Source: Candidatus Gastranaerophilales bacterium
Lineage (GTDB): Bacteria; Cyanobacteriota; Vampirovibrionia; Gastranaerophilales; Gastranaerophilaceae
DNA: 36,949 bases
Assembly: GCA_944325575.1 (NCBI GenBank)
Contig: CALVAR010000024.1
Location: forward strand, 1-36,949
Direction of reading: 5' to 3'
The notes beneath the pieces were generated by a model. That model saw only the letters and a list, made by a program, of their open reading frames with translations, made no database searches and had not been told where the DNA came from. Below, piece after piece: positions 3,381 to 36,949 of the stretch (its first letter is position 1; every line of letters starts with the position of its first letter). The position numbers and the translations under genes were made by a program.

Positions 3381-5060
3381 ATGTTTAACCAACCGGAAAA
3401 TGACAAATATACAAAAAATCTAAACCCGTCAAATTTTAATTTTCCGCGGGATATCTCCGCTGATTTTGATAAATTTTTAGACGGAGGTTATGGCGAAAAC
3501 AGAGCCTACAACGATTGTGCAATAGACGGCTATTGCAGTGTGGATCCTATTATTTATTCTCTTATGGAGGTTCTTTTATACGAGCTTAAGCAGATTACTT
3601 ATTATTATATTAAAATGCAGGAGCTCGGCTATGAAAACAAAAAAATAAAAGACAATATAATTAATTATCTGTCTTTAATCCTTGTCGGTTACGAGTTTAA
3701 CCGCAAAGAGTTTGAGATTCTTTTGAGCAATATAAACAAAGAAAAAGAATCCGTAAAAGATACTTATATAACACTGTGTGAAAAGAAAAATCTGGACTGC
3801 CAGATTTTAAAGTCGGGAATAAAGTTTAAGCAGTTTGATCTTATGTCAATTGTCAATCAGGGAGAGCAGCAAGCCATTCAGCGCAACAAAATGCTCAGAA
3901 CAGATACAAAAAATTTGTACGAAATTATCCTGAATCTGATTAAAAGCGCAAGCATAAGACTTGTAGAGCTAAAATGCTACACGGAAGATTACCTTCCGGA
4001 AGAAGATGCCATACTGAGACTTTTTAACAATCTGAATTTTTCTGCGGCATCAGAAGAAAAACTTACCCGTAAAATAAATGAATTTGCACAAATAAATTAC
4101 AAAATACATACAAAGCTTCACCGTTTTAAAGAAGAATATTACGGCGGCATAACTCTGAATGATGTAGAAATAGGTGTAGAAGAGGGCAAGTCCGTTCTTG
4201 TTTCCGGGCAAAATCTAAAAGATCTGGAAAATGTTTTGCAGGCGGTAAAAGATACGGATATAAACGTCTATACACATAACGGTCTTATTGTTGCCCATGC
4301 TTACCCAAAATTTGCCGCTTATACAAATTTAAAAGGGCATTTTCAAATGTCTCTGGACAGTGTACAGTTTGACTTTGCTTCTTTTAAAGGGCCCGTTCTT
4401 ATTATAAGAAATTTTCAGTATCTGCTGGACAAGCTATACAGAGGAAGGCTTTTTACAACAAATCTTATTGCCGGTAAGGGTATGACCCGTATAGAAAATA
4501 AAGATTTTCAACCTCTTATAGACGCAGCACTTGAGTCAAAAGGCTTTGAACATGAGCATAAAATAGCATCCGTTAAAGTCGGATATGACGAAAATTTTGT
4601 TATGCAAAAAGTTGACGAAATTGTTGAAAAAATTAAAAACAAAAGAATAAAACATCTTATAATCGTAGGGCTTCTAAACCATTCTCCCATGCATTCCGAT
4701 TATTTCAGCAAAATGGAACAGATATTGCCGGAAGATTATTATGTTATTTCTACATTAATTCCGTCAATTAAACATAATATTTTGTATTTTGAATCTTTCT
4801 TTAATTCATCTTTAATATACAAAATACTGTCTCACATAAAAGAGTCCGTTGATTTTGAAACATTCCCGGTTTCCGTATTTATCACAACCTGCAACCAGCA
4901 TACAATTTCTCACCTTTTTAATCTCAGATATCTGGGTATAAAAAATATTTACCTGCCTGTTTGCACTTCCAATGTTGTTACGCCCGGTATGTTAAAATTT
5001 TTGAAAGAAAAATTTAACTTTAAACAAGCCGGCACAAACCCTAAACAGGATATTTTGTAA
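3381..5060 (+). CDS. Hcp (hybrid cluster protein) homologue lacking the hybrid-cluster ligands
   Basis: This 559-residue protein aligns along its length with hybrid cluster protein (hydroxylamine/NO reductase). Clear landmarks are GKSVLVSGQNLKDL (269-282), INVYTH (294-299), FKGPVL (335-340) and LGIKNIYL (518-525). By eye-alignment to recalled E. coli and Desulfovibrio Hcp sequences, the seven residues that bind the Fe-S-O cluster are all replaced: His by G256, Glu by G301, Cys by F345, Cys by L432, Cys by I460, Cys by F474 and Glu by N505. Of the four N-terminal cluster cysteines only the CX5C pair (C46, C52) appears kept, and about 40 extra residues precede it. The frame is long and intact, so it is probably expressed, but not as a classical Hcp. 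No clear ribosome site precedes the ATG. Its role is unknown. Confidence 0.75.
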   Translation: MFNQPENDKYTKNLNPSNFNFPRDISADFDKFLDGGYGENRAYNDCAIDGYCSVDPIIYSLMEVLLYELKQITYYYIKMQELGYENKKIKDNIINYLSLILVGYEFNRKEFEILLSNINKEKESVKDTYITLCEKKNLDCQILKSGIKFKQFDLMSIVNQGEQQAIQRNKMLRTDTKNLYEIILNLIKSASIRLVELKCYTEDYLPEEDAILRLFNNLNFSAASEEKLTRKINEFAQINYKIHTKLHRFKEEYYGGITLNDVEIGVEEGKSVLVSGQNLKDLENVLQAVKDTDINVYTHNGLIVAHAYPKFAAYTNLKGHFQMSLDSVQFDFASFKGPVLIIRNFQYLLDKLYRGRLFTTNLIAGKGMTRIENKDFQPLIDAALESKGFEHEHKIASVKVGYDENFVMQKVDEIVEKIKNKRIKHLIIVGLLNHSPMHSDYFSKMEQILPEDYYVISTLIPSIKHNILYFESFFNSSLIYKILSHIKESVDFETFPVSVFITTCNQHTISHLFNLRYLGIKNIYLPVCTSNVVTPGMLKFLKEKFNFKQAGTNPKQDIL

Positions 5061-5120
5061 TTTTTTAAGATTGTTTGAGGCGGCTTCGCTTGTAGAAGTG
5101 TACACGGAGTGCGAGTGACG

Positions 5121-5241
5121 CCAAGTCTAGCATTTTGCGGAAGTGACCCCATGCACTTGTTGCCTGTGCCGGACTTATTGAACAAAACAGACTTGCCAAT
5201 TGCACAGGTTCTACAAGTAGTCGGAGTCAGTTGACTATATG
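5121..5241 (+). repeat. Interspersed palindromic repeat, copy 1 (uninterrupted)
   Basis: This 121-bp element sits between the convergent 3' ends of the Hcp-like and prepilin peptidase genes. It starts with CCAAGTCTA, contains GTGACCCCAT (5143-5152) and the inverted pair CCTGTGC (5163-5169) / GCACAGG (5202-5208), and ends with TAGTCGGAGTCAGTTGACTA (5218-5237). The same blocks in the same order occur at 32845-33143, and the right end occurs inverted at 36882-36949. Its minus strand has an open frame through the whole element that includes the peptide YSQLTPTT, also seen at the end of ProS. Confidence 0.8.
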
Positions 5242-5355
5242 AAAAATTAATTATGCAGGACTCAAACAAATGGAACTTACAGTTGTTTAGTTTAGTCTCT
5301 GTAAAATCGAAGTATCAGGTTTTATAAATAAATCTCATGGGGGTAATCCAAGAGT

Positions 5356-32844: not shown

Positions 32845-33143
32845 CCAAGTCTACTATTTTTCGAAGGTGACCCCATCTGTCTTAAAATCAGACGTTCGGG
32901 AAAAGCGTGGTTTTCCCTCACAAGGGGCGTTCCTTTCAGTCAGCCCCGTCAGATTTCGCTATTGCCTGTGCCGGACTTGTTGATAAAAATGTACTTGTTT
33001 ATTGCACAGGTTCAATAAGCGGATTTTCGGACGGACAAAGTCCGGGGCGCGAGGTACAAAGTGAGCACAAGCGAAGCAAAGCGAACGATTGTACCGAGCG
33101 TGAAGAAAATCCAAGAGGTAGTCGGTCTCAGTTGACTATATAA
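32845..33143 (+). repeat. Interspersed palindromic repeat, copy 2, with two insertions
   Basis: This copy carries the same ordered blocks as 5121-5241: CCAAGTCTA (32845-32853), GTGACCCCAT, CCTGTGCCGGACTTGTTGA (from 32965), GCACAGG (33004-33010) and TAGTCGG-CTCAGTTGACTATA (33119-33140). Two extra stretches are present. About 80 bases (32877-32960) contain the stems GGGAAAA/TTTTCCC (32898-32917) and GGGGC/GCCCC (32924-32947). About 100 bases (33019-33118) contain GGATTTTC/GAAAATCC (33021-33112), GGTACAA/TTGTACC (33053-33095) and CGGAC-AAA-GTCCG (33032-33044). It fills most of the gap between the divergent prfA and glmU, 28 bases from the prfA start. Confidence 0.8.
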
Positions 33144-35112: not shown

Positions 35113-36909
35113 ATGAAAATGTCACGTCTTTTTGTACAAACATTGAGAGAGTATCCCTCGGATGCCGAGGTTATAAGCCACAAACTGCTTGTCAGAGCAG
35201 GCTATATAAGAAAACTTGCACAGGGTGTATACAATTATATGCCTTTGATGTGGAGAGTTTTAAAAAAAGTTGAAAATATCGTAAGAGAAGAAATGGATGC
35301 TGCAGGCGCTCAGGAAATGCTTATGCCGTTTGTTCAACCGGAGGAACTCTGGCAGGAATCCGGAAGATGGAACGTATACGGCAAAGAACTTATGAGGCTG
35401 AAAGACCGCCACGGACGGGGTATGTGCCTCGGACCTACGCATGAAGAGGTTATTACCTCCGTGGCAAGAGAAGGTATAAAGTCTTACAAACAGCTGCCTG
35501 TAAACCTTTATCAAATCCAATCCAAATTCCGTGATGAAGTGCGCCCGAGATACGGACTCTTAAGAGGACGTGAATTTATTATGAAAGATGCATACAGCTT
35601 TGATTCTTCTCAGGAAGGGCTTGAAAAATCATATGCTGACATGGCAAAAGCTTATTACAAAATATTTGAACGCTGCGGGCTGGAAACAAAAGCAGTACAA
35701 TCAGACTCAGGTGCAATAGGCGGTGCTGTTTCTCACGAGTATATGGTATTGATTGATGACAATGAAAATAACGCAGGCGAAAACGACGTGTTCTTCTGTA
35801 AAAATAAGTCTTGCGGTTATGCCGCCAACGCAAACCATGCTGTTTCCGTGCTTGAGAGTGCAGAAGTTGACGGTGCAAAATTCGGTTTTAACGGGTTTAA
35901 GAAAGTTGATACACCTGACACAACCACTATTGAAGAACTGGCTGCTTTCTTGAAAATCCCTGCAACAGTTATTTTAAAATCCATGATATATGTTGCGGAT
36001 AACAAAATAGTCATGGCGTTAATCAGAGCGGATAAAACTTTTGAAGAGACAAAAGTTATGAATGCCGTAGGCGCAAACGAAATCAGAAGCGCTGCTCCTG
36101 CTGAGCTCGAAGCAATATTCGGCGCAAGTAAAGGATTTGTCGGCCCCAAAGATATTGAGCAGGTAAAAATACCCGAAGAATACGAAGGTGAAAAAATCAC
36201 GGTTGTTGCTGATTTAACGGCTCAGGAAATGAAAAACTTTGTAATAGGTGCAAATGAAACAGACAAGCACTTTACAGGAGTCAACTGGTCAGATTTGAAT
36301 ACACCGATATTTGCGGATATCAGGCTTGTTGAAGCGGGTGAAAAATGTCCTGATTGCGGTGAGCCTCTTTATGTAACAAAGGGTATTGAAGTAGGTAACA
36401 TTTTCCAGCTTGGTACAAAATACTCAAAAGCCATGAATGCCGTTTATCTTGACGAAAACGGCAAGACTCAGCCTTTTATTATGGGCTGTTATGGTATTGG
36501 TATCTCGAGAACCGCTGCAGCAGCTGTTGAACGCCACCATGACGAACACGGTATCAAATGGCCGATTGCAATTGCGCCTTACCATGTGGATATTGTACCT
36601 GTAAATATTCAGGATGAATTGCAGATGAAAGTGGCAAATGAAATTTATGAAAAACTTCTTGCCGCAAAGGTCGAAGCCGTACTGGATGACAGAGATGAAA
36701 GAGCCGGAGTTAAATTTAAAGATGCGGATTTAATCGGATTCCCCTTCAGAATCACTGTAGGTAAAACTATTACGGAAGGTCTGGTTGAATTTAAGGTAAG
36801 AGAAACAGATGAAGTATTCAAGGTTAAGCCTGAAGAGGCAGCGGAAAAAATCATTGAATACGTAAAACCTTATATAATTTCATATTGTCAACTGACTCCG
36901 ACTACTTGA
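35113..36909 (+). CDS. proS: Proline--tRNA ligase, bacterial type with editing domain
   Basis: This 598-residue class II synthetase charges tRNA-Pro. Motif 1 lies near 30-65 (YIRKLAQGVYNYMPL). Motif 2 is FRDEVRPRYGLLRGREFIMKDAYSF (near 137-161). The YbaK-like editing insertion is at about 230-400, motif 3 is GCYGIGISRTAAAAVE, and the anticodon-binding domain is last. Family members end soon after KIIEYVK. Here the frame continues through ISYCQLTPTT to a TGA, and those last codons lie in an inverted copy of the interspersed repeat (36882-36949). The same YxQLTPTT peptide is encoded by repeat copy 1. The tail is therefore repeat-derived, and the enzyme body is complete. Confidence 0.95.
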   Translation: MKMSRLFVQTLREYPSDAEVISHKLLVRAGYIRKLAQGVYNYMPLMWRVLKKVENIVREEMDAAGAQEMLMPFVQPEELWQESGRWNVYGKELMRLKDRHGRGMCLGPTHEEVITSVAREGIKSYKQLPVNLYQIQSKFRDEVRPRYGLLRGREFIMKDAYSFDSSQEGLEKSYADMAKAYYKIFERCGLETKAVQSDSGAIGGAVSHEYMVLIDDNENNAGENDVFFCKNKSCGYAANANHAVSVLESAEVDGAKFGFNGFKKVDTPDTTTIEELAAFLKIPATVILKSMIYVADNKIVMALIRADKTFEETKVMNAVGANEIRSAAPAELEAIFGASKGFVGPKDIEQVKIPEEYEGEKITVVADLTAQEMKNFVIGANETDKHFTGVNWSDLNTPIFADIRLVEAGEKCPDCGEPLYVTKGIEVGNIFQLGTKYSKAMNAVYLDENGKTQPFIMGCYGIGISRTAAAAVERHHDEHGIKWPIAIAPYHVDIVPVNIQDELQMKVANEIYEKLLAAKVEAVLDDRDERAGVKFKDADLIGFPFRITVGKTITEGLVEFKVRETDEVFKVKPEEAAEKIIEYVKPYIISYCQLTPTT

Positions 36910-36949
36910 TGAACCTGTGCAATAAACAAGTCAGTTTTTAAAAACAAGT
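36882..36949 (-). repeat. Interspersed palindromic repeat, copy 3, inverted and cut by window end
   Basis: The reverse complement reads ACTTGTTTATTGCACAGGTT, then CAAGTAGTCGGAGTCAGTTG, matching the right ends of the copies at 5121-5241 and 32845-33143. It overlaps the last nine codons and stop of proS. The window ends inside it, so its full length is not known. Confidence 0.8.

Follow-up and report, generated by a model that had tools for sequence, protein, structure and literature searches.

Does a homologue of Hcp that seems to have lost the ligands of its hybrid cluster represent a gene on its way to decay, or a protein that has been kept for another purpose? The question is raised by a gene in a 36,949-nucleotide contig of a Candidatus Gastranaerophilales bacterium (CALVAR010000024.1, assembly GCA_944325575.1), referred to below as the window. 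An earlier note, made by reading the letters of this DNA, had described the product as a full-length Hcp homologue without any hybrid-cluster ligand. The gene stands singly, flanked on the opposite strand by two genes whose sequences we read as those of a divergent M16-type peptidase and a peptidase of the prepilin type. The gene and its N-terminal part are located as follows:

3381-5060, + strand: coding sequence of the putatively cluster-free Hcp-like protein, an intact open reading frame of 559 aa
3381-3536, + strand: residues 1-52, an N-terminal extension and the remnant of the [4Fe-4S] module, predicted to be disordered (pLDDT < 50)

The homology of the 559-aa protein to Hcp is beyond doubt. 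It matches the Pfam Prismane family (PF03063) with an E-value of 5.5e-35 and 121 bits, against a gathering score of 27, and its best sequence matches in the PDB are all Hcps (8cnr, with an E-value of 2.1e-37, 7de4, and 1e1d). TIGR01703 also matches it over residues 44-558 (E 1.6e-64), at a score of 218 bits that lies below the equivalog cut-off of 361, and the cut-off of NF003658 is likewise not reached. The protein contains seven cysteines in total, and a canonical Hcp uses eight for its two clusters.

What, then, has become of the cluster ligands? In the Hcp of D. vulgaris, the hybrid-cluster ligands are His244, Glu268, Cys312, Cys406, Cys434, Cys459, and Glu494, numbers that were matched to the aligned residues of the phmmer comparison. 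The corresponding columns were mapped with phmmer, two MAFFT alignments, and profile-profile alignment with hhalign, and the methods agree:

4209-4211, + strand: Q277, in the His244 column (phmmer, MAFFT, hhalign)
4281-4283, + strand: G301, in the Glu268 column (phmmer, MAFFT, hhalign)
4413-4415, + strand: F345, in the Cys312 column (phmmer, MAFFT, hhalign)
4674-4676, + strand: L432, in the column of Cys406, the persulfide ligand (phmmer, MAFFT, hhalign)
4758-4760, + strand: I460, in the Cys434 column (phmmer, MAFFT, hhalign)
4797-4802, + strand: F473/F474, at the Cys459 column, adjoining a deletion of about eight residues (MAFFT, hhalign)
4893-4895, + strand: N505, in the Glu494 column (hhalign); Asp or Asn in most family members
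3516-3518, + strand: C46, aligned with the third cysteine of the N-terminal cluster and present in some 90% of family members
3534-3536, + strand: C52, aligned with the fourth cysteine of the N-terminal cluster, mostly kept or lost jointly with C46

None of the seven hybrid-cluster ligands is retained by phmmer, MAFFT, or hhalign, and this concordance rules out misalignment as the cause of their absence. Of the four N-terminal cluster cysteines, two are kept (C46 and C52) and the other two are gone. The main claim of the earlier note is thus borne out by three alignment methods and by the fold described below, and the MAFFT alignment likewise confirms its statement that only C46 and C52 remain of the N-terminal cluster. 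Five of the positions that it had assigned by eye (G301, F345, L432, I460, and N505) are the same in our alignments. The residue in the His column is Q277 and not G256, and the residue at the Cys459 column is placed by alignment at F473 instead of F474, a shift of one residue beside a gap that leaves a phenylalanine in either case.

A model predicted with AlphaFold2 from an alignment of 85 relatives has a pLDDT of 86.3 and a pTM of 0.86, with residues 1-52 disordered. When this model was used in a Foldseek search, the best matches were class I and class II Hcps (8cnr and 1e1d at E-values of about 1e-28), and comparison by VIA with the Hcp of D. vulgaris gave a Z-score of 30.7 over 502 residues with an rmsd of 3.8. 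The full class I/II Hcp fold is therefore predicted, and the Foldseek and VIA matches rule out a different fold. In a second prediction, for a shorter relative whose gene is linked to a glutaredoxin gene (L109), disorder is limited to the first 20 residues, around the two remaining N-terminal cysteines. In a class III Hcp, the loss of one [4Fe-4S] ligand likewise leaves the module disordered and the body still folded (PMC10502027).

By fold and descent, the window protein is a member of the Prismane/CODH superfamily. With class I Hcps (D. vulgaris, 1e1d/1e2u; M. thermolithotrophicus, 8cnr; TIGR01703), it has the whole fold in common, including the middle helical region, at 20-23% identity over about 500 residues; unlike them, it lacks the seven hybrid-cluster ligands and two of the four [4Fe-4S] ligands, and it falls below the cut-offs of both TIGR01703 and NF003658. 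Ni,Fe-CO dehydrogenases, including CooS-V (7b7q), are more distant fold relatives that rank after the Hcps in VIA (Z about 15.8, compared with 30.7), and they differ from the window protein in being dimers with further clusters and in having their metal ligands present. The same genome also encodes, at a different locus, a canonical Hcp with 510 aa (G000:C4, locus L001). This short Hcp, of class III length, is a paralogue, 30% identical within the C-terminal part that aligns, and, in contrast to the window protein, it has all ligands, no middle region, and an adjoining Crp/FNR-type regulator gene. The cluster ligands are stated to be conserved in all three HCP classes (PMC10502027). Because these defining ligands were looked for in the window protein and are absent, it should not be filed as an Hcp, and, since the cluster would be missing, activity as an NO or hydroxylamine reductase appears unlikely from the sequence.

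How could such a protein have arisen? Relatives in the same order display intermediate states. The long Hcp of families f2-f4 is intact in all ligands. Two forms occur in family f7, one of which keeps the four N-terminal cysteines together with E268, C312, and C406, and the other two N-terminal cysteines together with E268 and C312; in family f6, C406 and C434 are kept. In a tree of 57 rows, which has long branches and whose support is given as SH-aLRT and not as bootstrap values, the partial forms of f6 and f7 are placed between intact Hcps and the clade of the window's family, which is monophyletic (SH-aLRT 100), and the TIGR01703 scores drop along the same series (773, 374, 203, and 139 bits). 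Because of this intermediate position and these falling scores, the comparison supports a stepwise loss of ligands, starting from an ancestor of class I type; f6 and f7 may also have lost theirs independently. The partial-loss proteins (L237, L239, L242, and L243) belong to the same lineage; they differ from the window's clade in keeping some cluster ligands, in having no C504 (see below), and in having no glutaredoxin neighbour. A far-diverged group (L191 and L247-L250) is also ligandless, with a match restricted to the N-terminal two thirds, and L251, a hit from another part of the phylum with missing columns, contains masked sequence and was set aside. It should be mentioned that one partly stripped Hcp of a sister family (L237, 803-2446) scores 374 bits against the TIGR01703 cut-off of 361; several of its ligands are gone, and it would therefore be misnamed as a hydroxylamine reductase.

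The ligandless form is not peculiar to one genome. In the window's genus, 22 of the 23 genomes have a full-length orthologue (69-84% identity), and these orthologues are ligandless in the same columns in the MAFFT alignment. In the window's family, the profile finds a match in 147 of 150 good genomes of a phylum-wide sample, and such matches nearly always outscore the short canonical Hcps of that family. The carriers on named contigs are Candidatus Gastranaerophilales / Melainabacteria, mostly from animal-gut and other metagenome genomes. Among 136 distinct family proteins, a count that leaves out eight intact long Hcps (seven ligands each) let in by a name filter, 98 keep no ligand, 25 keep one, 10 keep two, and three keep three. 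In pairwise whole-gene Nei-Gojobori estimates, dN/dS is 0.072 and 0.088 between the window protein and its two nearest orthologues and 0.07-0.12 across the genus; the median over 63 close family pairs (dS < 1.5) is 0.10, the same value as for the canonical Hcp. In other words, the losses are common to genus and family, with no sign of random decay, and the gene is under purifying selection. In some genera, two or three cluster-free Hcp-like genes follow one another in tandem (L057, 6120-10985; L060, 429-3688; L081, 1015-4220).

The family-wide conservation, the dN/dS of about 0.1, the stepwise loss, and the presence of a separate true Hcp in the genome argue together for selection for a retained, changed role, and the window protein is almost certainly a selected, cluster-free paralogue of Hcp. 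The earlier note had gone further and proposed selection for a new non-redox role, as a scaffold or sensor. The selection stands, on the evidence of conservation and dN/dS; the non-redox scaffold or sensor is unsupported in that form, for a fixed new pair of cysteines and a neighbouring glutaredoxin rather suggest thiol redox chemistry. The cysteines concerned, with a third that is specific to the family, are:

3777-3779, + strand: C133, a family-specific cysteine in the middle domain, in 98% of 44 diverse members
4890-4892, + strand: C504, a new cysteine in the Tyr493 column, beside the lost Glu494 ligand, in 133 of 136 family members and 93% of the 44 diverse members
4962-4964, + strand: C528, a new cysteine in the Thr column of the canonical 'GPTLPAF', in 93% of the 44 diverse members

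C504 and C528 are both present in 134 of 137 rows and both absent in the other three, which represent two events on the tree; no row has one alone. In the AlphaFold2 model, they follow consecutive beta strands (497-501 and 522-525), and, with the distance taken from topology, they would be neighbours at the cluster end of a Rossmann-like sheet. Of 80 named relatives, 47 have a glutaredoxin gene (CPYC, CPYS, or CPFC) directly upstream of the Hcp-like gene and on the same strand; the spacing is -31 to +8 bp between stop-to-stop frames, so that the real gaps are slightly larger. The same upstream position held no glutaredoxin in any of 20 intact, partial, or far-diverged loci. Upstream of the intact long Hcps there are instead genes for an Rrf2 regulator and for a ferredoxin-like protein of the 4Fe-4S kind. 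At L233 (4479-5804) and similar loci of f3 and f4, the protein encoded beside such an Hcp, together with the Rrf2 regulator, has 273 aa and 4Fe-4S motifs and is likely to be the dedicated electron donor. Each of 16 genomes tested contains one or two glutaredoxin genes, together with GCS2, whose product catalyses the first step in making glutathione.

The reading that we consider best, with belief and doubt about evenly balanced, is that the window protein is a cluster-free, thiol-based descendant of Hcp served by glutaredoxin. A class I-type Hcp was kept in the Gastranaerophilales line, where relatives with graded ligand loss survive, and in the window's family it is now fixed, fully folded, and under purifying selection, and lacks both a usable hybrid-cluster site and a complete [4Fe-4S] site. 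In domain III, C504 and C528 would each sit at the C-terminal end of one of two successive parallel strands, at the edge of the former cluster cavity, and would form a redox-switchable pair that may be disulfide-bonded, glutathionylated, or S-nitrosylated. Glutaredoxin and glutathione would reduce this pair, in place of the ferredoxin that adjoins the intact long Hcps. The physiological task is perhaps, at a guess, the handling of nitrosative or oxidative stress. That the chemistry is thiol redox linked to glutaredoxin falls slightly short of an even chance in our judgment. Against it stand one member linked to glutaredoxin (L055) without C133, C504, or C528 and a second glutaredoxin-linked group without C46 and C52, as well as the small number of tree events (two) behind the joint loss of C504 and C528 and the behaviour of the glutaredoxin genes described below. 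More tentatively still, we suggest that a whole family has passed from an Fe-S-O metalloenzyme to a cluster-free protein of thiol-disulfide chemistry, that glutaredoxin has replaced ferredoxin as the electron donor, and that the steps can be seen in living sister lineages.

It may be objected that the protein is simply a cluster-free scaffold or regulator, in which the Hcp body binds a partner, the cysteines are structural, and the glutaredoxin neighbour is a matter of old gene order. Every ligand is gone, and yet the fold and the core glycines are retained, as would suit such a role. Nine near-complete genomes without the Hcp-like gene were tested, and all have kept glutaredoxin; in six of them, wecB-grx-rpsG are still together with the Hcp-like gene cleanly absent. 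Glutaredoxin is therefore independent of the Hcp-like protein, the adjacency being partly a conserved gene order, and this test of co-loss gives no support to an obligate pair. Nor was a glutaredoxin gene found beside the Hcp-like gene in the window's own genus, where the glutaredoxin genes lie elsewhere in the genome, so any link there must act in trans. Against the scaffold, two separate types of glutaredoxin (by Pfam) adjoin the gene in unrelated settings, which we read from the sequences as wecB-grx-hcp-like-rpsG-rpsL, yebC-TPR-grx-hcp-like, and a few others. The strict pairing of C504 and C528 also exceeds the obvious needs of a scaffold. We regard this alternative as unlikely.

Could the new cysteines instead bind a metal? 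C133, C504, and C528, and possibly the Asp or Asn at 505, might hold zinc, iron, or a small cluster; three new conserved cysteines in one family speak for such a site, as does the location of C504 and N505 in the old ligand loop. Among the three cysteines, the only pair that covaries is 504-528, and its corrected mutual information places it at rank 2103 among 136004, which is a weak contact signal on its own. A metal site that draws in C133 by covariation with the other two is thus not borne out. C133 alone is lost in several members that keep C504 and C528, and no conserved fourth ligand was found in the family. We consider a new metal or Fe-S site rather improbable.

It is harder still to believe that C46 and C52 share a [2Fe-2S] cluster with ligands from a partner, namely, glutaredoxin and glutathione, as in Grx-BolA pairs. 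The two cysteines are mostly kept and a glutaredoxin is often next door; against this, glutaredoxins of the CPYC/CPYS kind are usually not cluster carriers, one group linked to glutaredoxin has neither C46 nor C52, and the region around these residues is predicted to be disordered. Slow decay of a pseudoenzyme without a selected function, for which one might cite the absence of the gene from about 4% of good genomes in an order-wide sample, sometimes by clean deletion, is ruled out for practical purposes by the dN/dS of about 0.1, the full length of the frame in almost every one of several hundred genomes, and the fixation of the new cysteines.

The thiol-based descendant served by glutaredoxin would, if real, be a new type of protein with a new glutathione-linked function, for example, in the reduction or sensing of S-nitrosothiols. 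Ligand-free Hcp, folded and under selection, is present across an entire bacterial family, and Pfam would still class it as Prismane/CODH. The living intermediates in the sister families make it directly testable what the body of an Hcp does once its cluster is gone and how a metalloenzyme is converted, and the strains that have naturally lost the gene can serve as controls. The open-licence literature, searched in the contexts of pseudoenzymes, Gastranaerophilales/Melainabacteria, and glutaredoxin, contained no cluster-free Hcp, so the remark in the earlier note that no family of this kind had been described holds within that literature; an earlier mention elsewhere is possible.

Two repeats in the window should also be mentioned. 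A few bases past the stop codon of the Hcp-like gene, at 5066-5260, there is an intergenic repeat of about 180-195 bp, of which further pieces lie at 32962-33019 and 36878-36949. Across the genome, BLAST finds 45 pieces of it on both strands, about 30 of them near full length, at 80-100% identity; as a candidate RNA feature downstream of the gene, 5066-5260 gave no Rfam match and no excess folding. The second, at 225-580, is a tandem pair of a 176-nt unit, whose copies are 75% identical and contain motifs such as GTCATCCTGAG and CAGAATGACAT.
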